DNA from: Croceimicrobium hydrocarbonivorans
GTDB lineage: Bacteria; Bacteroidota; Bacteroidia; Flavobacteriales; Schleiferiaceae
Length of the DNA stretch: 64,000 nt
NCBI RefSeq assembly: GCF_014524565.1
Contig: NZ_CP060139.1
Coordinates: 1,743,501 to 1,807,500 of the forward strand
Reading direction: 5' to 3'
The translations under genes were made by a program, and so were the position numbers. Position 1 is the first letter of the stretch. Each line of letters starts with the position of its first letter. Shown one piece after another: positions 1,601 through 12,252 of this stretch. The notes under the pieces are model-generated. The model was not told the DNA's origin, ran no database searches, and saw only the letters and a program-made list of their open reading frames with translations.

Positions 1601-1802
1601 AATTGCTATTTTTTAGGTAAAAACGGAAGGGAGCTAAGATACGCTTTGGCTTATGGTCTGAATCATTGTGAGGTTGCTTCACCGCCCGCTCCTACGTCGC
1701 TCGAGGCACAGAGGACGCAGAGGTTCACAGCTGCCTACCGGCAGGCAGGAGCTTCTTAGCGCCGCTGCGGTAAAACAATCCACCAAAGCTCCACTCGAAG
1801 CA
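1601..1802. repeat. Spacer with a dispersed repeat copy left of the insertion sequence
   Basis: Bases about 1673-1757 carry another copy of the TTCACCGCCCGCTCC...GAGGACGCAGAGG repeat, ending in the near-palindrome CTGCCTACCGGCAGGCAGG at 1732-1750. The insertion sequence lies about 50 bases to the right. The coding frame of the downstream transposase ORF reads through this repeat, but that part is unlikely to be genuine protein. Confidence 0.5.
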
Positions 1803-2162
1803 ACAACCATTTTCAGGCGGCATCAGACCTTGCGCAAGGAAGTGGTCAAACAGATTGAATCGGGAGAACTTCGGGTATATCAAGCCTGTAGGATTTTCGA
1901 GATTAAATCACCGCAAACGGTTTATAACTGGTTAAACAAGTATTCTCGTACCTTGAAGACACAAACACGCATAGTAGTGGAAAACAATAGTGTTGACAAA
2001 CGTCTGAAGGAATTAGAGGCGCGCACCAAAGAGTTGGAGGCTGCTTTAGGACGAAAGCAGTTAGAAGCCGATTTGTACCGCCATATCGTAGATCTGGCCT
2101 CAGAAGAATATAAGGTGGATCTAAAAAAAAGTTTTGGCGCCAGAGCATCCAAAGGCAAATAA
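1668..2162 (+). CDS. IS3-family transposase OrfA (helix-turn-helix), N-terminus probably not native
   Basis: Codons 46 onward encode an IS3 OrfA-type protein: a helix-turn-helix (RKEVVKQIESG, then VYQACRIFEI, SPQTVYNWLNKY) followed by a leucine-zipper-like coiled coil (LKELEARTKELEAAL) used for multimerisation. It would bind the IS ends. Codons 1-45 are translated from the dispersed repeat, and codons 46-53 from the 23-base IS-end sequence, so the native start is missing and the ATG at 1668 is only the first available one. The 3' end overlaps the OrfB frame, with an A8 slippery tract at 2123-2130. It may be non-functional because of the altered 5' end. Confidence 0.65.
   Translation: MRLLHRPLLRRSRHRGRRGSQLPTGRQELLSAAAVKQSTKAPLEATTIFRRHQTLRKEVVKQIESGELRVYQACRIFEIKSPQTVYNWLNKYSRTLKTQTRIVVENNSVDKRLKELEARTKELEAALGRKQLEADLYRHIVDLASEEYKVDLKKSFGARASKGK
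2123..2131 (+). promoter_or_regulatory. Putative programmed -1 ribosomal frameshift site (A8G)
   Basis: Eight adenines followed by G lie near the end of orfA. Slipping back one base moves translation from the OrfA frame to exactly the OrfB frame (codons starting 2129, 2132 and so on), which stays open from there into OrfB. A6G/A7G-type slippery runs at this place are the established way IS3-family elements make the OrfAB transposase. Confidence 0.7.
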
Positions 2163-2182
2163 AGCTGGAGACAAAGACTGAA

Positions 2183-3088
2183 GTGTCGATCAGGAGAAGT
2201 TGTCATTTGCTGGGCTTTAGCCGGCAGGCCTACTACAAGCCCCAAGCTCTAAGAAGGGAGCTTGTTGGGCTTGAAGACGGCCTGCGTAGCCTGATCCTGT
2301 CCGCGCGTGTGGCCTGCCCTGGCTTAGGTTGTAGACCCATCTATTATGCTCATGCGGATCAGCTTTCCATTGGACGGGATAAGTTCGAGGCATTGGCTGC
2401 TGAACTGGGCTTACAGGTTAAAAGGAATACTAGGTATATCCGAACCACCAAAAGCGACCAACGTAAGTTTGACAACCTTCTCATTGATAAACAAGTACGA
2501 TCCATCAATGAAGTTTGGCAAGCCGATATGACCTATTATCTGAAAGGATCAAAATGGTATTATTTGATGTTCATTACGGATGTTTATTCTCAAAGGATCC
2601 TAGGCTATGGGGCTTATAGCAGAGCTAGCGCAGTCCACTTCAAAGAGGTTTTAAAGCAGGCCATTGCCACTCGAAAGAAAGACGGCTACACCAACTTAAG
2701 CGGTCTTATTCATCATAGTGATGGAGGCCGACAGTATGAAGAGCGTAGCTATCGTGAGTATTGCAAAGGCAAAGGCCTAAAGCAAAGTATGTGTTACTAT
2801 TCATGGGAAAACCCCTATGCAGAGAAAACCAATGATTTGATTAAAAACCGATACCTCAATTACTGGAAGCCTACTAACCTTCATGAGCTCAGACTATGCC
2901 TCAAACAAGCAGTGGAACACCATAACAAGTTCCAGCAAAAGCGAGTATTGAATAATAGCACTCCAATAGACTTTGAATGGAAAATCAAATCCATGGAATC
3001 CAGTCCAAGTAATTACACTTTAAACCTTAAGCCCAGTAAGCCTAGAACTAAAAACAAAAAGTATAAATTAGTAGAAATATCTGAGTAG
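2183..3088 (+). CDS. IS3-family transposase OrfB (DDE integrase catalytic domain)
   Basis: A 301-residue catalytic half of an IS3 transposase. It begins with the HTH_21-like region (SCHLLGFSRQAYYK), then the rve integrase core. The DDE triad can be followed: Asp in WQADMTYY, Asp in HHSDGGRQY, and Glu in NPYAEKTNDLIKNRYL. The C-terminal YNxxRxH-like region appears as VEHHNKFQQKRVLNN. The GTG at 2183 is the first start codon used here, but in the family OrfB is normally made as an OrfAB fusion by -1 frameshifting, and the frame is open upstream to the A8 tract. The catalytic domain looks intact, so it could act in trans. Confidence 0.88.
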   Translation: MSIRRSCHLLGFSRQAYYKPQALRRELVGLEDGLRSLILSARVACPGLGCRPIYYAHADQLSIGRDKFEALAAELGLQVKRNTRYIRTTKSDQRKFDNLLIDKQVRSINEVWQADMTYYLKGSKWYYLMFITDVYSQRILGYGAYSRASAVHFKEVLKQAIATRKKDGYTNLSGLIHHSDGGRQYEERSYREYCKGKGLKQSMCYYSWENPYAEKTNDLIKNRYLNYWKPTNLHELRLCLKQAVEHHNKFQQKRVLNNSTPIDFEWKIKSMESSPSNYTLNLKPSKPRTKNKKYKLVEISE

Positions 3089-3156: not shown

Positions 3157-5208
3157 CTATACACTCTGATCCATCTTCTTCACCATCGTTAAGATCGTTG
3201 CCAGAGCCACAGTCTCGCCTTCCTCATCGTAAACATCCACATTGAATTTCACGATGCCCTTAGCGATATCATCTTTACTGCGTTTTTCCTGATCGATCTT
3301 TTCCTTCACGGTAAACTTCACGCCGATAGTCATGCCAGGATATACCGGTTTGGTAAAACGACATTCATCAATACCGTAGTTCAATAATACCGGTCCTTTG
3401 CGGGGATCAACGAACATACCGGCTGCTTTAGAAAGTACATAGTAGCCATGCGCCACCTTACCCTCGAAGATGGTGCCCTCCAGAGAAGTGGCATCCACAT
3501 GAGCATAGAAATTATCGCCACTCACCTGAGCAAAGCTGGCGATATCGGCATCCGTAACGGTATGACGGTGGGTATATACAGTTTCCCCCACTTTGAGCTC
3601 TTCGAAATGCTGGCGGAATAAGTGTTTTTCCGCTTCCGGACGACTGGCGCCGGGTTGGTATACCTGAGTGATTTCAGTAATAGTATCCGGGTGTCCCTGA
3701 ATGGCGGTACGCTGTAAATAGTGCAATACACCGCGCTTTCCACCCATCTCTTCACCGCCACCGGCTCGTCCGGGTCCACCGTGCGTAAGTAGAGGCATGG
3801 GCGAACCATGACCAGTACTTTCCTTGGCACTCTTAGCATTCAACACCATAATTCGACCGTGCATGTGTGCGGCTTCCACTACATATTCGCGACCCAATTT
3901 ATCATCGGCTGTAATAATGGAGCTCACCAAGGAACCTTTACCCATATTGGCAATCTCGGCCGCTTCGGCTAAGCCTTTATAAGGGATTAAGGTTGATACC
4001 GGACCAAAGCATTCCACTTCATGTACATCGGTATTGCTAAAAGGATTGTCGTTGCGGAACAAAGTGGGGCTTACAAAAGCACCTTTATCTCTTTGGGCAC
4101 CCATCACTTCAAAATCGCGGAGGTCGCCATAAACCACTTCCTGCGAATTTTTAAGGCGGGCAATATTCTCCGCCAGGCGCTCCACCTGAATGCTGGAGGC
4201 TAATGATCCCATGCGCACTCCTTCCATTCGAGGGTCACCAATACTTGTTTTCTGCAAGCGAGAAATCAATGCTTCCTGCACCGCGTCTATCTTATCTTCG
4301 GGAACTATAATTCTACGTACGGCCGTACACTTCTGACCAGCCTTAGTGGTGATCTCACGCTGAACCTCTTTTACGAAGATGTCGAACTCGGGCATACCTG
4401 GTTCCACATCCGGACCTAATACCGAAGCGTTTAAGGAGTCGGCTTCTAGGTTGAAAGTAACCGAGCGATCGATGATGTGAGGCAGAGCTTGCAATTTCTT
4501 CCCGGTAGCGGCACTACCCGTAAAGGTTACGGTATCGCCGGTGGTCACATGATCCAAAATTCCGCGCCCTAAACCTGTTAGCAATTGCAGAGCACCTTCC
4601 GGTAAGATCTTGGAGGCGATAATTTCGCGCACCACATGCTCTGTTAAGAAAGAGGTGTACTCAGAAGGCTTCACTACTGCAGGAACACCGGCCATCAGGT
4701 TCACCGCAATTTTTTCGAGCATTCCCCAAACCGGGAAGTTAAAGGCATTAATATGAATGGCCACTCCGCGCTTAGGCACCATAATATGATGTCCGATAAA
4801 TGTGCCGTTCTTGGATAGAGGCGCATGGCTACCATCAACATAATAGGGTAAATCCGGAAACTGGCGACGTAATGAGGCATTGGCAAAGAGGTTTCCAAAA
4901 CCGCCTTCAATATCTACCCAAGAGTCAATTTTTGTGGCTCCGGTTTTAAAGCTGGTTTCGTAAAACTGATCTTTGATTTTCACGAGATGCAGGGCCAGAG
5001 CCTTCAACATTCGCCCTCTTTCCTGGAAGGTCATTTTACGGAGGGCAGGGCCACCCACCTTGCGACCATAATCTAAAATGGCCTCATAATCTAATCCGGC
5101 ACTGGAAACAATTCCAATTTCGGTTCCGTGTATCGCGTCGCGGGCAATCAGTTCCTCGCCTTGGCCAGAAACCCATTCACCCTGTACATAATTCTGAATT
5201 TGCTGCAT
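3157..5208 (-). CDS. paaZ: PaaZ: bifunctional oxepin-CoA hydrolase / 3-oxo-5,6-dehydrosuberyl-CoA semialdehyde dehydrogenase
   Basis: A 683-residue cytoplasmic enzyme, the length expected for PaaZ. Residues 1-520 are an aldehyde dehydrogenase with the Glu255 (FNLEAD) general base and the nucleophile Cys294 (GQKCTAVRR). Residues about 535-680 are a MaoC-like hot-dog domain with the FAQVSGDNFYAHVD hydratase motif. In the phenylacetate pathway the MaoC half opens the oxepin-CoA ring and the dehydrogenase half oxidises the resulting semialdehyde with NADP. Both active sites look intact. It stands alone on the minus strand, far from the other paa genes at 31.8-41.7 and 55.2-59.2 kb, next to an IS element. 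Function is well supported. Confidence 0.95.
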   Translation of the reverse strand: MQQIQNYVQGEWVSGQGEELIARDAIHGTEIGIVSSAGLDYEAILDYGRKVGGPALRKMTFQERGRMLKALALHLVKIKDQFYETSFKTGATKIDSWVDIEGGFGNLFANASLRRQFPDLPYYVDGSHAPLSKNGTFIGHHIMVPKRGVAIHINAFNFPVWGMLEKIAVNLMAGVPAVVKPSEYTSFLTEHVVREIIASKILPEGALQLLTGLGRGILDHVTTGDTVTFTGSAATGKKLQALPHIIDRSVTFNLEADSLNASVLGPDVEPGMPEFDIFVKEVQREITTKAGQKCTAVRRIIVPEDKIDAVQEALISRLQKTSIGDPRMEGVRMGSLASSIQVERLAENIARLKNSQEVVYGDLRDFEVMGAQRDKGAFVSPTLFRNDNPFSNTDVHEVECFGPVSTLIPYKGLAEAAEIANMGKGSLVSSIITADDKLGREYVVEAAHMHGRIMVLNAKSAKESTGHGSPMPLLTHGGPGRAGGGEEMGGKRGVLHYLQRTAIQGHPDTITEITQVYQPGASRPEAEKHLFRQHFEELKVGETVYTHRHTVTDADIASFAQVSGDNFYAHVDATSLEGTIFEGKVAHGYYVLSKAAGMFVDPRKGPVLLNYGIDECRFTKPVYPGMTIGVKFTVKEKIDQEKRSKDDIAKGIVKFNVDVYDEEGETVALATILTMVKKMDQSV

Positions 5209-5392: not shown

Positions 5393-6679
5393 ATGGAGAA
5401 ATTTTTCCTACGCTTAGCCATCATCATTCTCAGCCTTTTTGGCTTATCTGTTTTTGGCTGGTTAGTTAAGCACAATAGTACCGGTGATAAGATATTGGGC
5501 GACAAAGTGGGCAAGGGCCTGGATGCCTATGTAAGCTTTCTCGACCTCTTTGAAAAATCGGTGGAAGAAGTAAAAAAACTTCCCGAAACCTTTGTGCCTA
5601 CCCCTGCCGGTTTTGAGGCCGTAAATAAATTGGAGAATGATCTTTATGCCCTTATCAGCTATAGCAATGCCGAAGAAGGGCGCAGCGTAGAAATCCGCAA
5701 TCTTAAAAACGACGAGAGCCTTCATAAATGGGATATTGCCAACCCTTATCAGGCGCATGATCGTATTATGGATCCTTTGCTTTTGCCAGGCAAGCGCTTG
5801 GTTTATTCTTACAATGGTGTTACCGGCTTAATTTGTTTGGATTCGCTTGGAAACCAAATTTGGAATCAGGATACCATTGCCCATCACCACTCGATTAACC
5901 TCGATAGCGCCGGAAATATCTGGGCCTGCACCTATACTAAGGAAAATGGCGGTTTCATTATCTACAAAGGTTTTTACGATGTGGATGGCCGAGAATTAGT
6001 GTATATCGATAATACCATCAGCCAACTAGACCCCAATACGGGTAAGCTCCTCTTTCATAAATCCATTACTGAGATTTTGAATGAAAACGGGCTTTCGAAT
6101 TTGATCATGAAGTCACCCAATATTGAGGATCCTATTCACCTTAACGATGTACAGCCCGCTTTAAAAACTACCGCTTGGTACCAAGAAGGCGATCTGTTCC
6201 TGAGTTTTAGAAACTGCTCCGCGCTGATGCACTATCGCCCTTCCACCAATAAAGTGATTCGCTTGATTGAAGGTAATTTCTATTCCCAGCACGATATTGA
6301 TTTCTTGAACGATAGTACCATTATCTTCTTCAACAATAATTCGCACACCTTCTGGAGCAGTCGTCCGAGCAATTGGCGGGTGGCTGATCAGCGCATCGAT
6401 GCCGGAGATTACTATTCCAATACCATGGCCTACGACCTTAAAAACGAAAGGCTGTACCCTTACGAGAAGAAGGTCTATGATGAGCATCAAATTCAAACCT
6501 TCACCGAAGGAATGCAAGAAGTTTTAGCCGATGGCAGCCTTTGGATCGAAGAACAGAACAGCGGAAAACTTTGGGTATTTAAAAATGGAGAGCTCTTGTA
6601 TAAAAATGTGCTTCCTTCGCAGCATGAAGGGCATCATCACCTTTCGAACTGGACCCGAATTTTAAGTAAAAAACCATGA
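5393..6679 (+). CDS. Membrane-anchored arylsulfotransferase (ASST)-like beta-propeller protein
   Basis: A 428-residue protein with one N-terminal membrane or signal segment (residues 5-25) and a propeller-like body. The body shows ASST-family features: repeated GN-x-IW blades (DSLGNQIWNQD, SAGNIWACTY), HHSINLDSAGN, a HLNDVQPA motif close to the family's catalytic-site signature, and QHDIDFLND followed by FFNNN. ASST enzymes move sulfate from a phenolic ester to another acceptor in the periplasm without PAPS. It begins a tight operon with a 48-residue membrane protein (ATGA overlap at 6676) and a PAPS-type sulfotransferase. The His that takes the sulfuryl group in ASST could not be assigned with certainty. 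It could instead be an ASST-like structural or sensing propeller. Confidence 0.7.
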   Translation: MEKFFLRLAIIILSLFGLSVFGWLVKHNSTGDKILGDKVGKGLDAYVSFLDLFEKSVEEVKKLPETFVPTPAGFEAVNKLENDLYALISYSNAEEGRSVEIRNLKNDESLHKWDIANPYQAHDRIMDPLLLPGKRLVYSYNGVTGLICLDSLGNQIWNQDTIAHHHSINLDSAGNIWACTYTKENGGFIIYKGFYDVDGRELVYIDNTISQLDPNTGKLLFHKSITEILNENGLSNLIMKSPNIEDPIHLNDVQPALKTTAWYQEGDLFLSFRNCSALMHYRPSTNKVIRLIEGNFYSQHDIDFLNDSTIIFFNNNSHTFWSSRPSNWRVADQRIDAGDYYSNTMAYDLKNERLYPYEKKVYDEHQIQTFTEGMQEVLADGSLWIEEQNSGKLWVFKNGELLYKNVLPSQHEGHHHLSNWTRILSKKP

Positions 6680-6822
6680 CAAGTCCTTTTCTCTATATCG
6701 GTCCGGGCATGAGCGCCGGCGCCATCGTGCTGATCTTATTGATTGGTGCCCTGGTTCTTTTTTCATTAGGCTATATCGTTTACCTCCGCATTAAGCGCAT
6801 GGGTAAAAAGAAGAAAAAGTAA
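6676..6822 (+). CDS. 48-residue single-pass membrane protein between ASST-like and sulfotransferase genes
   Basis: A short gene whose ATG overlaps the stop of the upstream ASST-like gene (ATGA at 6676-6679) and whose TAA directly abuts the ATG of the sulfotransferase at 6823. The product starts MTSPFLYIGPGMSAG, has a hydrophobic helix at about residues 16-37, and ends in a strongly basic tail with five lysines, giving a cytoplasmic C-terminus by the positive-inside rule. No family is recognised. The perfect coupling to both neighbours is the main evidence that it is translated; a role as a small assembly subunit of the two sulfotransferase-like proteins is inference. Confidence 0.65.
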   Translation: MTSPFLYIGPGMSAGAIVLILLIGALVLFSLGYIVYLRIKRMGKKKKK

Positions 6823-8193
6823 ATGGTTTTTTACTTCATTCTGGCCCTTTCGGCTGCCCTGGCTTTTGGCCTGATTCGCTGGGGGCGGAAGAGCTTTTAC
6901 CGACTGGCTATTAGCAGTACTCGGGTGCTCGACATTATGCTGGGCGATCAGGATGATGACGAAAAGCTCGAAGAATTACAGTCGCATACCGGCAAGCTGA
7001 TTCTTAACCTATTCGCTTTTATTGGACTGCTCATTGCTGCGGCTGCAATTATCCTGATTAGCCTAAACCTCCATGATATTTTTATCGCTTTGGAAGATGG
7101 GGAAGCGGCTCCAGAACTCAGCTCTTGGCAAAGTATCATGGCTCTTTCTGTAGGTGCTACTATACCCTTTCTAATACCTTTCAAGAAGTCACCATCCGGC
7201 TATTCAGAGTTGGCAATGCTCTTACATCGAATGGTACTGAATAATTACCATTTGGGCCTTAAGCTTTTTCGTCGCGAAGTAAAAAGCAAAGGAATTGAAA
7301 AAAGGCAAGACTTCTTAATTATCAGTGGTTTAGCAAGAGCAGGTACTACCAGCTTTATGAATCATCTGGCTACTTTGCCCCAATTTCAAAGTTTGAATTA
7401 TGGCAATATGCCCTTTTTGCTGAGCCCTCATTTATGGTCGCGTTTTTACAAGCCTAAAACGGGCAAGAGTAAAGAGCGTAGTCATAAGGATGGCATTCAA
7501 TTGGGTATGAATTCTAATGAAGCCCTAGAAGAGTATTTCTTTAAGGCCATCAGTAAGGATAGCTATATTAAAGAGCATTGCTTGGAGGAATATCGCCTTT
7601 CGGCGGATGCGCATGAATCTTATTTAGACTATCAAAGTATTATCCGCCAAAGCCCCGAGCAAATTTACCTGGCCAAGAACAATAATTTCTTGTTGCGCTA
7701 CCGCGGATTGAGGGAAGAGAACAGTGAGTTTCATTTGGTACTACTTTTTCGTCAGCCCTTATTTCATGCGGCTTCCTTAAGATCCATGCACCAGCGATAT
7801 TGCGAAATGCAAAGTGAAGATGCCTTTGTTTTAGACTATATGAATTGGTTGGGGCATCACGAGTTTGGCTTAAATCAAAAGCCCTTTTTATTTGAGGGTG
7901 GTCAATTGCCGGAGGGTAATAAAAGTGAGCTCAATTACTGGCTGCAAATCTGGATTGAATACTATCGTTTTGCCCTAGAGCTGGAAGGCCCTAATATCCA
8001 TTTTACCCCTTATGAGGCTTTCTGTGCCGAGCCGGTATCTTATTTAAATCGAGCCCTCGCAGCGTTCCAATTAAAATGGGAAAATGAAGCTCCGCAGGCT
8101 TTTGTAAATCAGCGGAAGGTAGATTTGGACTATGATCAGGCCCTTCATAGTGAGGCCTTGGAGATTTATGCCCAATTACAAAAACGGCTGTAG
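6823..8193 (+). CDS. Membrane-anchored sulfotransferase family protein (PAPS-type)
   Basis: A 456-residue protein. Residues 1-20, about 60-90 and about 105-125 are hydrophobic and probably form two or three membrane helices. The C-terminal part from about residue 160 is a sulfotransferase domain with a P-loop-like 5'-phosphosulfate binding motif, SGLARAGTTSFMNHL, and a later LVLLFRQPLFHAASLRSMHQR segment, equivalent to the family's 3'-phosphate-binding region. It would transfer sulfate from PAPS to an unknown carbohydrate, lipid or protein acceptor on the cytoplasmic face. It is the third gene of a coupled operon with an ASST-like propeller and a 48-residue membrane protein. Domain type is confident; substrate is unknown. 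Confidence 0.8.
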   Translation: MVFYFILALSAALAFGLIRWGRKSFYRLAISSTRVLDIMLGDQDDDEKLEELQSHTGKLILNLFAFIGLLIAAAAIILISLNLHDIFIALEDGEAAPELSSWQSIMALSVGATIPFLIPFKKSPSGYSELAMLLHRMVLNNYHLGLKLFRREVKSKGIEKRQDFLIISGLARAGTTSFMNHLATLPQFQSLNYGNMPFLLSPHLWSRFYKPKTGKSKERSHKDGIQLGMNSNEALEEYFFKAISKDSYIKEHCLEEYRLSADAHESYLDYQSIIRQSPEQIYLAKNNNFLLRYRGLREENSEFHLVLLFRQPLFHAASLRSMHQRYCEMQSEDAFVLDYMNWLGHHEFGLNQKPFLFEGGQLPEGNKSELNYWLQIWIEYYRFALELEGPNIHFTPYEAFCAEPVSYLNRALAAFQLKWENEAPQAFVNQRKVDLDYDQALHSEALEIYAQLQKRL

Positions 8194-8243: not shown

Positions 8244-8858
8244 CTACAAAATCAAGGCAAAGCTCCCATCACTAATCTGCAAGGTATCCTGAATAGAACC
8301 TGATGGGGATTTCCTAATATTATTTACCATGACCATTTCAAAGCTTCCTTCGATCCAGCCGGGTCGGTTTTGGGCATATTTGGGCGGAGAAATGGTATCA
8401 TAATAAGCAGGGCGAAACTCCTTGATGATAAGCTGGCCTGAAACTGCATGATAGCTATAATGTTCCGTAGGGAATACTCCCAATGTATCCAAAAGCATAG
8501 ACTCCCAATCTTTGAAAAGTGAACTCGTGTCACCGGAATCAAATAGATAGGTGCCTTCAGAAAAAATGCTGTCCAATCTTAGCATCATCCAATTCGAAGT
8601 TTGGCAATCCTCTGCTATTACAGTAAGAAGGCCTCCAGGGTCCTCTCCAAGGACGCGAGGACCTTTCGCATAGGTCGTTCGAAGAGGATAACAATTAAAC
8701 TTCCCGCCTTGCTCAGTCCAGAATTCGCCATTGATATAGGCGGTGAATTTTTCGTACAGTACCGTATTGTTGTTATCCTGCTCTTCTTTATTACAAGCAG
8801 TAATTGAGAGAGAGATAGCGAAAAGTGCTGAATAGATGTATATTTTTTTCAAATTCAT
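8244..8858 (-). CDS. Lipoprotein, paralogue 1 of a tandem triplet
   Basis: A 204-residue lipoprotein: N-terminal MNLKKIYIYS, hydrophobic stretch, lipobox ITAC with Cys at about residue 22. The mature domain begins FTAYINGEFW, a pattern seen in small Bacteroidota lipoproteins of the DUF6252 kind, and ends QDTLQISDGSFALIL. Two further copies lie at 9036-9647 and 9734-10348 on the same strand. Its 5' end and upstream spacer match copy 2, whereas its central domain (GEFWTEQGGKFNC) matches copy 3 better. Probably an outer-membrane or periplasmic lipoprotein; function unknown. The family name is tentative. Confidence 0.75.
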   Translation of the reverse strand: MNLKKIYIYSALFAISLSITACNKEEQDNNNTVLYEKFTAYINGEFWTEQGGKFNCYPLRTTYAKGPRVLGEDPGGLLTVIAEDCQTSNWMMLRLDSIFSEGTYLFDSGDTSSLFKDWESMLLDTLGVFPTEHYSYHAVSGQLIIKEFRPAYYDTISPPKYAQNRPGWIEGSFEMVMVNNIRKSPSGSIQDTLQISDGSFALIL

Positions 8859-9035: not shown

Positions 9036-9647
9036 TCACAAAATCGCGGCAAACTTCCCATCCCTTATATGCAAGGTATCTTGAATAGTACCAGGAGGAG
9101 TTTTACTAATATTATTCACCAAGACCATTTCAAAGCTTCCTTCAATCCAGCCGGGTCGATTTTGAGCTTTCTCTGGTGGAGATATCGTATCGTAATATGC
9201 TGGTCTTAGTTGCTCTATCCTAAGCCAGCCTGAAACTGCTCTATATCTATAATATTCAATAGGGTAAACCTCCAGTGTATCTAATTCACGGGATTTCCAA
9301 TCCATATAGGCTGAAAGCGTATCGCTCGAATTGAATATATATTTTCCTTCTTGGTCAACGCTGTCAATAACTAAACTCATCACATTATCTGTAGGGCAAT
9401 CAGTCGCTACAATTGCTAAATAGCCTCTTGGATTATTCCCATAGCTATTAGCTTCTTTTGTATACACTTTAATTAAGGAAAAGCAACCTACACCTGGGTT
9501 TTTTGACCAATACTCATCATTGATAAATGCACTGAACTCTTCATAAAGGACTGTACTTCCATTATCCGCCTCCCCTTTTTCACAAGCAATAAAAGAGATC
9601 GATGTAAGGAATAGCATCGAATAGATGTATATTTTTTTCAAACTCAT
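9036..9647 (-). CDS. Lipoprotein, paralogue 2 of a tandem triplet (mosaic)
   Basis: A 203-residue lipoprotein with lipobox FIAC and a mature domain starting FSAFINDEYW. The start (MSLKKIYIYS) and about 90 bases around it (9619-9709) closely match copy 1 (8830-8920). The 3' end with its flank (9025-9120) matches copy 3 (9723-9818), sharing CAGATTCATCCTCACAAAAT. The middle is the most divergent of the three, with GVGCFSL in place of GGKFNC. This looks like a product of unequal crossing over or gene conversion. It shares the conserved core QNRPGWIEGSFEMV with its neighbours. Function is unknown. Confidence 0.75.
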   Translation of the reverse strand: MSLKKIYIYSMLFLTSISFIACEKGEADNGSTVLYEEFSAFINDEYWSKNPGVGCFSLIKVYTKEANSYGNNPRGYLAIVATDCPTDNVMSLVIDSVDQEGKYIFNSSDTLSAYMDWKSRELDTLEVYPIEYYRYRAVSGWLRIEQLRPAYYDTISPPEKAQNRPGWIEGSFEMVLVNNISKTPPGTIQDTLHIRDGKFAAIL

Positions 9648-9733: not shown

Positions 9734-10348
9734 TCACAAAATCGCGGCAAACTTCCCATCCCTAATCTGCAAGGTATCTTGAATAGTGCCAGGGGGAGAT
9801 TTACTGATATCATTTACCATAACCATTTCGAAAGTGCCTTCTATCCAGCCGGGTCGGTTTTGAGCATACTGGGGCGGTGAGATGGTATCATAATAAACAG
9901 TGCGAAACTCTTTAATGGTAAGTTGGCCTGATACTGCATGATAGCTATAATGTTCCGTAGGGAACACTTCCATTGTATCTAGGTTTCGAGATTCTCTATC
10001 TAAGAAAACAGAACTAGTATCGTTGGAATCAAATAGATAGGTACCCTCAGAATAAATATTGTCAAGTATCAGTCCCATCACATTAGAATTTTGGCAATCC
10101 TTTGCAACTACAGCAAGAAATCCCCCTGGGTTATCGCCATAAGAACCCGGATTTTTCACATAGGTGGTTTGCAGAGGAAAACAATTAAACTTCCCGCCTT
10201 GCTCCGTCCAGAATTCGCCATTGATATAGGCGGTGAACTTTTCATAGAGCACAGCATTATTTTTATCTTGCGAATCTTCTTTACAAGCCGTAAGAAAGAT
10301 AGTAAGAGCAGTTAGCAGCGTACCGATGCGAATCAATTTCCAGATCAT
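9734..10348 (-). CDS. Lipoprotein, paralogue 3 of a tandem triplet
   Basis: A 204-residue lipoprotein with a different signal peptide (MIWKLIRIGTLLTALTIF, lipobox LTAC) but a mature domain very similar to copy 1 (FTAYINGEFWTEQGGKFNC; QNRPGWIEGTFEMV; RDGKFAAIL at the end). It is the first of the three in transcription order, following a DUF4625-like lipoprotein at 10404-11147. The different leader and spacer suggest this copy may be ancestral and the others derived. The role is unknown; the conserved aromatic and Asp/Asn-rich core suggests a beta-sandwich binding domain. Confidence 0.75.
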   Translation of the reverse strand: MIWKLIRIGTLLTALTIFLTACKEDSQDKNNAVLYEKFTAYINGEFWTEQGGKFNCFPLQTTYVKNPGSYGDNPGGFLAVVAKDCQNSNVMGLILDNIYSEGTYLFDSNDTSSVFLDRESRNLDTMEVFPTEHYSYHAVSGQLTIKEFRTVYYDTISPPQYAQNRPGWIEGTFEMVMVNDISKSPPGTIQDTLQIRDGKFAAIL

Positions 10349-10403: not shown

Positions 10404-11147
10404 TTAAGGTGCAATCTTAACATCGTGTTTAAAGGTGCCATAATTGCCTTTATTATCTAAAGCCGTAATGGTCAATTGATAATTTACCGAAATGGCATTC
10501 TGAGGAATCATAACAGTATAGCCACCATTAAAGTCCCAGCTTGTATCATTGCTTCCATTAAAATCAATTTCCTCATTCAGAACTTGGTTAGGGCCGCCAA
10601 TATTATTCTTCACATTAATTTGAATGATCACCTTGCTCAGATCTTCATTATCGGTGATTAAGCCCATAAATGTTACCGGTGATCCAGCGCTTAAATGAAT
10701 GATATTATCTGAAGGAGAAATACTGGGTGCACTTAAACTAATTTGAGGACGGTTATCCTCAATCATAGCTTGAAAGGCAGTGCTGGTCTTATTTCCAGAT
10801 GCATCTATGGCAGTCAACCTAATAAGACAGGAACCGGGGGTAGCATCTGAAGAAAGCTCAATCTGCTGATTAACGCTAGCCGATGTACCCGAGAGATTGA
10901 AGCTTTTAGAATAGGACCAATTGCCATTATTCGTTTCAATACTTAAGTTAAGCTTGGATAGCTGTGCATTATCCTTGACTTGCGCTTGAAATTCAAAACT
11001 CTCACCGGCAGTTAATACTACCTCTTGTGATTCTTGATTAAATGAATACTCGGTTATTTCAGGGATGATAAATTCTTCATCCTTATTACAAGACATGATA
11101 ATTGCCACAATGGCCAGACTAGCCATCGCTAAATACGATTTGCGCAT
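10404..11147 (-). CDS. DUF4625-like lipoprotein with two Ig-like domains
   Basis: A 247-residue lipoprotein: signal MRKSYLAMASLAIVAIIMSC with lipobox Cys20. The mature part contains two similar beta-sandwich units, residues about 30-130 and 135-245. Each starts with a proline- and serine-rich linker and contains the pattern of a hydrophobic strand, D-N-x-x-L or D-N-E-D-L, and a turn near the end (ALDNKGNYGTF, AIDASGNKTST). This pattern matches DUF4625 in Bacteroidota lipoproteins. It lies between the FabH-like gene, 40 bases upstream, and the lipoprotein triplet. Surface or periplasmic binding is likely; ligand unknown. Confidence 0.7.
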   Translation of the reverse strand: MRKSYLAMASLAIVAIIMSCNKDEEFIIPEITEYSFNQESQEVVLTAGESFEFQAQVKDNAQLSKLNLSIETNNGNWSYSKSFNLSGTSASVNQQIELSSDATPGSCLIRLTAIDASGNKTSTAFQAMIEDNRPQISLSAPSISPSDNIIHLSAGSPVTFMGLITDNEDLSKVIIQINVKNNIGGPNQVLNEEIDFNGSNDTSWDFNGGYTVMIPQNAISVNYQLTITALDNKGNYGTFKHDVKIAP

Positions 11148-11187: not shown

Positions 11188-12252
11188 TTAAATCCGATAG
11201 GTAATGGCATTGATGCTCATCCCAGCCCCAACCGAGGCTAAGAGAATCACATCGCCCTCATTTAACTCGTGACCTTCCAGCTCACCGCGACGTAATAAAT
11301 CGAGTAGAGTGGGTACCGTCGCCACTGAACTGTTGCCTAAAAGATGGATGCTCATGGGCATAATTCCCTCCGGTTCGGGTGTGCGATACAAACGGAAGAA
11401 ACGCTTAATAATGGCTTCATCCATTTTTTCGTTTGCCTGATGGATCAAGACCTTTTTCACCTGATCAATGCTTAATCCCGAACGGTCCAGGCAAAGCTTC
11501 ATCGCTGCCGGAACATGAGTCAATGCAAATTGATAAATCTTCTGCCCCTGCATTTTGATATAGCGGGTATCATGCCCTACATCTTGCTTATTGCTCTCTC
11601 CGTAATTCAAATAATAGGCCTCGTCTTCGGTAAAGGTTTGGGATGCTGTACTGAGAATTCCCTTTTTCAGGTCTTTGTCGATAGCCTCTACTACTGCAGC
11701 TCCCGCTCCATCAGAGAAAATCATCGAATCCCGATCATGGGGATCTAATTTGCGCGAAAGCGTTTCTGCACCAATCACCAAATAGTGCTTACCCTGGCCA
11801 GCGAGAATGTAATTGTAGGCGAGAATTACCGCTTGCACCCAGCCCGGACAACCATATAGAATGTCGAATGCAATGCAATTAGGGTTCTTAATCTTAAGGT
11901 CATGCTTTACCCGAGTAGCCAGGGAAGGCAGGATATCACTTTGAATTTTACCCTGTGGGATGTTCCCGAAATTATGGGCGAAGATGATTCCATCCAGAGT
12001 TTCAGGGTCAATACCGGCATCATCAATCGCTCTTTGGGCAGCAATGGTAGCCAGGTCTGAAGTTTGCTGATCTGGACGAGCATAGCGTCGTTCGCGAATC
12101 CCCGTTATCTCTTGAAACTTTCGGATGATTTCTTCACCCTCCTGATTAATACGCTCACCTTCGCGAGTGTAAAATTCATTGCCACTAAAATTCTGGTTGG
12201 GGACCTGAAGTTCTGGAATGCAACTTCCGGTGCCGGTAATTTCTAGATTCAT
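11188..12252 (-). CDS. 3-oxoacyl-ACP synthase III family protein (FabH-like)
   Basis: A 354-residue thiolase-fold condensing enzyme. The KAS III triad is intact: nucleophile Cys135 (ILYGCPGW), His271 (LIHQANEK) and Asn307 (LLGNSSVATVP). The family's FSDGAGAAVVE and C-terminal LASVGAG motifs are also present. It would condense an acyl-CoA starter with malonyl-ACP, or perform a related condensation. It is longer than typical FabH (about 320) with an insert near residues 25-50, as in FabH-like enzymes outside the main fatty-acid operon. No ACP, FabD or FabG is nearby, so a special lipid or a secondary role is as likely as primary initiation. Cytoplasmic. Confidence 0.85.
   Translation of the reverse strand: MNLEITGTGSCIPELQVPNQNFSGNEFYTREGERINQEGEEIIRKFQEITGIRERRYARPDQQTSDLATIAAQRAIDDAGIDPETLDGIIFAHNFGNIPQGKIQSDILPSLATRVKHDLKIKNPNCIAFDILYGCPGWVQAVILAYNYILAGQGKHYLVIGAETLSRKLDPHDRDSMIFSDGAGAAVVEAIDKDLKKGILSTASQTFTEDEAYYLNYGESNKQDVGHDTRYIKMQGQKIYQFALTHVPAAMKLCLDRSGLSIDQVKKVLIHQANEKMDEAIIKRFFRLYRTPEPEGIMPMSIHLLGNSSVATVPTLLDLLRRGELEGHELNEGDVILLASVGAGMSINAITYRI

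Follow-up and report, generated by a model that had tools for sequence, protein, structure and literature searches.

The sulfuryl donor 3'-phosphoadenosine-5'-phosphosulfate (PAPS) is made in the cytoplasm, and the bacterial arylsulfotransferase AssT acts in the periplasm. According to the available part of a review of these enzymes, little is understood of what bacterial arylsulfotransferases do physiologically, and no natural substrate of theirs has been identified; it also describes the roles of the AssT active-site residues, including the transient sulfation of His436 (PMC13426309). A two-step relay between the two enzyme types is known for caprazamycin: as reported in the accessible excerpts of two papers, the PAPS-dependent Cpz8 makes the donor for the PAPS-independent Cpz4, with a triketide pyrone as carrier (PMC6731281, PMC4257720). 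Here, we describe a locus that combines putative members of both types with a very small membrane protein. It occupies positions 5393 to 8193 of a 64,000-nucleotide stretch of the Croceimicrobium hydrocarbonivorans genome (assembly GCF_014524565.1, contig NZ_CP060139.1, positions 1,743,501 to 1,807,500), which is referred to as the window. The locus, hereafter the trio, encodes an AssT-like propeller (gene 1), a 48-residue microprotein with a YxGPG motif (gene 2) and a PAPS-type sulfotransferase with a membrane domain (gene 3).

The trio is real and conserved, and its core is a small membrane protein that lacks a curated family name. No description of it was found in the open-licence PubMed Central literature. 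Judging from its parts, we think it somewhat probable that the trio forms an inner-membrane complex that takes sulfuryl groups from PAPS in the cytoplasm and delivers them in two steps to an acceptor outside the inner membrane, probably a surface glycan. A preliminary description of the locus had stated that it matched no known pathway, a statement that the caprazamycin relay corrects. The likeness to Cpz8 and Cpz4, which is drawn from published descriptions, is the pairing of a PAPS-dependent and a PAPS-independent sulfotransferase in one locus, established here by family and residues only. In contrast to the Cpz system, the parts of the trio are membrane-anchored and accompanied by a conserved transmembrane microprotein and a membrane domain; no type III polyketide synthase was found among the four neighbouring window open reading frames (ORFs) scanned (PaaZ, a FabH-like synthase and two others); and the gene context, where informative, is that of a surface glycan, whereas the Cpz enzymes serve a nucleoside antibiotic. 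E. coli AssT (PDB 3elq, PF05935) resembles the propeller in its matching active-site residues, recovered by profile-profile alignment. The propeller differs in belonging to PF14269, in having no aligned N-terminal beta-sandwich, in carrying its own membrane anchor and in being linked to a PAPS-type sulfotransferase.

The features of the trio, with the evidence for each, are the following (aa, amino acids; alignments are described below).

5393..6679, + strand: gene 1, propeller, ASST-like PF14269, 428 aa, with one N-terminal membrane anchor (Pfam, hydropathy, profile-profile match)
5402..5458, + strand: putative hydrophobic anchor of the propeller, residues 4-22 (hydropathy scan)
5888..5890, + strand: codon for His166 of the propeller, aligned with His252 of E. 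coli AssT (H in 29/29 rows)
6137..6145, + strand: propeller His249-Leu-Asn251, equivalents of AssT His356 and Asn358 (H and N in 29/29 rows)
6209..6211, + strand: propeller Arg273, equivalent of AssT Arg374 (R in 25/29 rows; 2 K, 1 C, 1 P)
6290..6292, + strand: propeller His300, equivalent of the sulfuryl-accepting AssT His436 (H in 29/29 rows)
6676..6822, + strand: gene 2, YxGPG microprotein, 48 aa, one transmembrane segment and a lysine-rich C-terminus (ORF, family profile, hydropathy)
6694..6708, + strand: Y-I-G-P-G motif of the microprotein (residues 7-11), predicted to lie at its extracytoplasmic end (alignments)
6823..8193, + strand: gene 3, membrane domain and PAPS-type sulfotransferase (Sulfotransfer_3-like), 456 aa (ORF, Pfam, profiles)
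6823..7197, + strand: N-terminal membrane domain of gene 3, about residues 1-125 (homologous to a separate gene)
7327..7350, + strand: 5'-phosphosulfate loop GLARAGTT, residues 169-176 (R172, G174, T175 and T176 in 21/21 rows)
7750..7776, + strand: 3'-phosphate region, Arg310 to Ser318, with Lys285 upstream (K285, R310 and S318 in 21/21 rows)

These ORF coordinates confirm the coupled three-gene set of the preliminary description: genes 1 and 2 share an ATGA overlap (6676-6679), and the TAA stop of gene 2 ends at 6822, leaving zero spacing before the ATG of gene 3 at 6823. The genome (4.04 Mb, a single contig) contains one match to gene 1, and none of the three proteins exceeds the cut-off of any NCBIfam model. 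Tight packing recurs in a set of 20 loci whose coordinates were entered by hand, with the start codon picked by hand in L024 and L069. The microprotein and the next gene are separated by -4 to +15 bases in 20/20 loci, and the propeller and the microprotein by -19 to +19 bases in 19/20, the remaining locus having 171.

Across 196 genomes of the order, the propeller was found in 14, the sulfotransferase in 13 and a near full-length microprotein (covering at least positions 4-45 of the 59 in the profile, E 1.2e-14 or better) in 13. The sulfotransferase and microprotein sets are the same 13 genomes, nested inside the 14 with a propeller, and the extra genome is the draft G155. The hypergeometric chance of the overlap between propeller and sulfotransferase is about 2e-19, a figure that ignores shared ancestry. 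The trio is contiguous in the g1, g8 and f14 loci read. Five of the 13 genomes have the propeller and the sulfotransferase on different contigs and yet possess both; in the g11 and g12 drafts, where the propeller is on another contig, the microprotein still lies directly 5' of the sulfotransferase. A scan of genome contigs returned one near-identical locus (L002), and scans of viral contigs gave no usable relatives of the trio.

Beyond the order, the propeller profile matches 9 of 295 genomes of the class, the source genome included. The sulfotransferase profile matches 6 of 11 selected genomes (the 8 other propeller carriers and 3 genomes of family f1); its misses are G451, G303, G155, G125 and G130, and the last two have no propeller either. 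In a sample of 395 genomes of the phylum, the sulfotransferase profile matches 7 and a wider propeller profile 31; with E below 1e-50, 7 of these 31 count as strong, and the others are weak and partial. A strong propeller and a sulfotransferase occur together in six genomes. Loci with a contiguous set were seen in families f48, f25, f49, f92 and f110. Relatives outside the phylum come from plasmid records only. A tblastn search of 72,556 of these gave 7 sulfotransferase and 5 propeller matches, all alphaproteobacterial, and the 5 records with a propeller match each have a sulfotransferase match nearby as well. On reading, a propeller is present in 7/7 plasmid stretches (in L099 and L103 by annotation, and in L099 by Pfam too). 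Four of the seven have the order propeller, YxGPG protein, separate membrane protein, sulfotransferase, and two have the order YxGPG protein, sulfotransferase with membrane domain, propeller. The preliminary description would have been undermined by a trio confined to this genome or by two folds stripped of their catalytic residues; distant relatives carry the set, and both folds keep theirs.

For the propeller, the Pfam assignment is clear, with 105.5 bits against PF14269 (Arylsulfotran_2), above the curated cut-off of 27. A profile of 29 propellers aligned to one of 7 PF05935 proteins with a probability of 98.3 (E 2.1e-14), which set H166, H249, N251, R273 and H300 on AssT His252, His356, Asn358, Arg374 and His436; AssT residues were placed by aligning L087, a PF05935 protein of the same phylum, to PDB 3elq and counting along the chain. 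On this alignment, the propeller has predicted equivalents of these AssT active-site residues, including the sulfuryl-accepting histidine that the preliminary description had singled out as a check. His165 is likewise invariant. Near AssT Thr501 the alignment gives position 371 or 372, where column 371 is T in 20/29 rows and column 372 is E in 20/29. The AssT N-terminal beta-sandwich domain is probably absent from the propeller, because gene 1 has no PF05935 match up to E = 1, the alignment to PF05935 proteins begins at residue 97 and the chain has 428 aa against 571 in AssT. One N-terminal hydrophobic segment is found in 26 of the 29 rows at the threshold used, and we take the propeller to be extracytoplasmic. 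The 29 rows leave aside the near-identical L019, the partial sequences at contig ends in L018 and L034, the weak match of G303, L136, L137 and the plasmid propellers; for partial matches of the kind seen in L046, the full ORF was used where present, except that of G303.

Second copies of the propeller occur in L053 (7869-12162, on the opposite side of the trio) and as tandem copies in L056 (74-2868) and L058 (7412-9921). In G633 (L071, 6045-7470), the C-terminus of the propeller appears to be in a different frame from the rest, through a frameshift or an assembly error.

In gene 3, the nucleotide loop and the 3'-phosphate Arg and Ser of PAPS sulfotransferases appear to be present in the aligned sequences. 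We take R172, G174, T175, T176, K285, R310 and S318 to be PAPS-binding residues, as in that family. The 21-row alignment on which their conservation was counted omits L019, L070, L138, the G635 fragment and the plasmid sulfotransferases. The closest solved structures by profile, both weak matches, are 2zq5 (E 2.5e-4) and human tyrosylprotein sulfotransferase 1 (E 0.003); the region that presumably holds the catalytic Glu of the latter is not retained in that alignment. In two g11 genomes, a second sulfotransferase-like gene of 324 aa directly follows gene 3 (L037 662-1636 and L039 8212-9186), and its L037 copy has a weak match to NoeE.

The N-terminal part of gene 3 corresponds to a gene that is separate elsewhere, with 123-136 codons in plasmid loci and f110 genomes and 239 aa in L104. 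Aligned with hhalign, seven such proteins (4 plasmid and 3 f110, omitting the L104 protein) match the N-termini of gene 3 proteins (n=13) with a probability of 96.9 and E 1.6e-10, and the controls gave 0.1 (propeller N-termini), 0.8 (reversed sequences) and 0.9 (microproteins). Because of this homology, the system can be divided into a propeller, a microprotein, a membrane domain and a sulfotransferase, four modules that are fused in varying ways. The gene 3 protein has two hydrophobic segments, against one to four in relatives that contain the membrane domain. No such segment is seen in the three f110 sulfotransferases, where this domain is encoded by a gene of its own, for which reason the catalytic domain should be cytoplasmic.

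The microprotein has no match over cut-off among curated families, and its best matches, BcsF and S1FA, fall below. Identity with the cellulose protein BcsF was rejected at 17.4 bits against a cut-off of 56. We nevertheless regard the 48-residue ORF as a real gene, since in each of the 13 genomes with a near full-length relative this relative adjoins the sulfotransferase or is fused to it. Some match to the microprotein profile at E up to 1 is seen in 139/196 genomes. Among the matches listed, those other than the near full-length ones reach at most 23.3 bits. The best of these begin within the hydrophobic part, at position 16 or later, and a small number of weaker matches (about 12-18 bits), such as those in G111, G163 and G021, reach into the N-terminal part. 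The Y, G, P and G of the motif are invariant in two sets of aligned sequences (12/12 and 15/15 rows, with 7 rows shared by both), and the motif is also present in six plasmid microproteins read. In the G188 locus L038 (6290-8152), the microprotein, extra membrane segments, the membrane domain and the sulfotransferase form one 620-aa protein. Fused in one genome and adjacent in others, the microprotein and the sulfotransferase are likely to cooperate.

An indication of topology comes from the microproteins of f49, f92 and f110, which have an extra N-terminal hydrophobic segment resembling a signal peptide (by hydropathy), as do the six plasmid microproteins (by eye). In the 12 microproteins of this type that were read (L057, L058, L067, L068, L069, L071 and L099-L104), the Tyr is preceded by Ala in 11 and by Gly in 1. 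By the cleavage rule for signal peptides, a cut at this point would place the Tyr at the very N-terminus of the mature protein. The signal-peptide-like segment and the Ala or Gly just before the Tyr suggest that the YxGPG end lies outside the membrane.

Gene context is informative in a subset of loci. In L067, an adenosine-5'-phosphosulfate (APS) kinase gene, for PAPS synthesis, stands directly behind the set (274 bits against a cut-off of 163), and the genes before it encode an epimerase, a glycosyltransferase, a nucleotidyl transferase/HAD protein, a GHMP kinase and a SIS protein, a group that we take to resemble heptose-nucleotide synthesis. Glycan genes are also found near the set in L099, L100 and L105 (Sagittula, Tateyamaria and SC52 plasmids), and in the Paracoccus plasmid locus L102 a capsule gene lies about 8 kb away. 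The source genome has an APS kinase, and one was found in 40 of 44 genomes, some carrying the trio and others lacking it; the general presence of this enzyme was thus rejected as evidence, so that only its direct linkage in L067 counts. None was found in G130.

PAPS being cytoplasmic and AssT periplasmic, a conserved pair of such enzymes needs an element that crosses the membrane, and the conserved membrane parts suggest that the crossing takes place in a complex. A relay across the membrane fits the anatomy of the trio. In such a relay, cytoplasmic PAPS would be the sulfuryl source. The N-terminal domain of gene 3 would keep its P-loop sulfotransferase domain at the membrane, where the latter would load a carrier reachable from the other side. 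The anchored propeller would accept the sulfuryl group on His300, in the ping-pong manner of AssT His436, and hand it to an acceptor beyond the inner membrane, for which a surface glycan is the likeliest candidate. As a constant component of the membrane part, the YxGPG microprotein would couple the sulfotransferase and the propeller. The carrier could be a lipid of the phenolic or quinol kind, or else the microprotein could carry the group on its own invariant Tyr.

Several observations weigh against the relay. The gene 3 protein scores 25.1 against PF13469 (Sulfotransfer_3), slightly under the cut-off of 27, and two of its relatives exceed it (51.7 and 46.9). The parts do not always travel together: a sulfotransferase fragment without a propeller is found in G635, and a propeller without a sulfotransferase in G155, G451, G303 (a weak match) and G759. 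The plasmid locus L105 has, in this order, the sulfotransferase, the membrane protein and the propeller, and the stretch read around them revealed no YxGPG protein. In L070 of G590, most of the propeller and the microprotein have seemingly been deleted, with the sulfotransferase and membrane domain kept. Draft genomes and contig ends explain some of the exceptions to co-occurrence, perhaps not all. No APS kinase was found in the drafts G140 (99% complete), G188 and G440, which carry both sulfotransferase and propeller. No obvious glycan genes lie beside the set in L101, L103 and L104 (Novosphingobium, Rhodobacter and Paroceanicella plasmids), and none were recognised among the neighbours seen of the trio in the window. 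For the surface-polymer sulfation put forward in the preliminary description, the gene neighbourhood gives support in some loci and none in the window itself. Single-sequence AlphaFold2 models had a mean predicted local distance difference test (pLDDT) score of 40 for gene 1 and 38 for gene 3, which made them unusable. As a separate observation on G590, the propeller N-terminus appears joined to the membrane protein (L070, 8762-9439), and a second propeller ORF lies elsewhere (L136, 7460-8812).

It is also conceivable, if rather doubtful, that the two enzymes sulfate the same product independently, the one acting on a glycan precursor in the cytoplasm before its export and the propeller drawing on environmental aryl sulfates to modify the exported polymer, with no relay; the shared product would then account for the joint occurrence of the genes. 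AssT-type enzymes do take simple aryl sulfates in vitro, as stated in the part available of PMC13426309, and propeller and sulfotransferase can be unlinked. The sulfated capsule of Vibrio sp. KMM 8419 offers a precedent, with sulfotransferase and PAPS-synthesis genes, including an APS kinase, together in a capsular polysaccharide/O-antigen glycan locus; the accessible text mentions no PAPS-independent enzyme, arylsulfotransferase or microprotein for it (PMC11641403). Independent action sits less well with the persistence of co-occurrence even where the two genes are unlinked, which suggests physical coupling, and with a microprotein that has the distribution of the sulfotransferase (13/13 genomes) and is placed between both enzymes in the measured loci, which suggests coupling too.

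The product might instead be a small sulfated metabolite or a sulfolipid, made by the sulfotransferase, exported by the membrane parts and then edited, or its sulfate recycled, by the propeller. The Novosphingobium, Rhodobacter and Paroceanicella loci and the trio of the window, without evident glycan-synthesis genes alongside, would suit this reading, which the glycan genes near the set in L067, L099, L100 and L105 make quite improbable in our judgement. We consider it very improbable that the propeller binds or hydrolyses sulfate esters and is no transferase, having retained the fold and the histidines. The missing PF05935 match, the want of an aligned counterpart to the AssT N-terminal domain, the replacement of Arg273 in 4/29 rows and the ambiguous position of AssT Thr501 would be compatible with such a role, but the invariance of His166, His249, Asn251 and His300 is consistent with catalysis by the AssT route.

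Within the relay across the membrane, the part of the microprotein could be more direct. By analogy with acyl transfer, it might be a covalent sulfate shuttle, its invariant Tyr being sulfated from PAPS by the membrane-held sulfotransferase, the group then being taken by propeller His300 and a surface polymer being sulfated. We regard this as unlikely, the main obstacle being that a Tyr at the outer face must meet a cytoplasmic active site. Tyrosine-O-sulfate belongs to the aryl sulfates, the class from which AssT enzymes draw their donors, so the propeller could take the group onto His300. The model for a shuttle is found in DltX and PatA, where, according to the portion of the source available, acyl groups are carried by a Tyr close to the outer terminus of the microprotein or of a peptide fused to an enzyme (PMC12148441). 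DltX and PatAB, as described there, share further features with the trio, namely an invariant Tyr near the extracytoplasmic end of a membrane microprotein or fused peptide (in the trio placed there by hydropathy and charge), an extracytoplasmic transferase partner with a covalent intermediate, and a shuttle peptide that is free or fused to the first enzyme. They differ from it in several respects: an acyl instead of a sulfuryl group, MBOAT and SGNH enzymes instead of a P-loop sulfotransferase and a propeller, and FXYXXF at the C-terminus instead of YxGPG at the N-terminus. As motif and enzymes are unrelated, the resemblance is one of analogy and not of membership. If true, the Tyr shuttle would do for sulfuryl groups what the Dlt and PatAB shuttles do for acyl groups, having evolved from unrelated enzyme folds.

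The conserved operon is a concrete candidate for the donor and direction of an arylsulfotransferase. It would offer a route for polymer sulfation on the outer side of the membrane, where one would not expect PAPS. The 48-residue gene could give a genetic handle on such sulfation in culturable bacteria.

Other roles were considered from database matches and neighbouring genes. A part in anti-phage defence was rejected, the three proteins having no PADLOC match up to E 0.01. The gene divergent from the trio (3157-5208, - strand) encodes PaaZ of phenylacetate degradation (837 bits). By eye, it accompanies the trio in those g1 and g8 loci that were read and is absent beside the others, and a link to phenylacetate degradation was rejected as incidental because of this restriction. 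A FabH-like beta-ketoacyl synthase (11188-12252, - strand), scoring below the FabH cut-offs, was set aside as the maker of a phenolic carrier; it is on the opposite strand, is near the trio in the g1 and g8 loci only (by eye) and lies 3.6 kb off in L020.

Between the trio and a 247-aa ORF at 10404-11147, the window has three tandem similar ORFs of about 204 aa on the - strand (8244-8858, 9036-9647 and 9734-10348), putative lipoproteins by eye. In the close relative G160 (L019), the 247-aa ORF is directly against gene 3, so the three lipoprotein-like ORFs look like a recent insertion or expansion. Further upstream, at 1668-3088 on the + strand, ORFs of 164 and 301 aa resemble by eye what we take to be the two frames of an IS3-type transposase.

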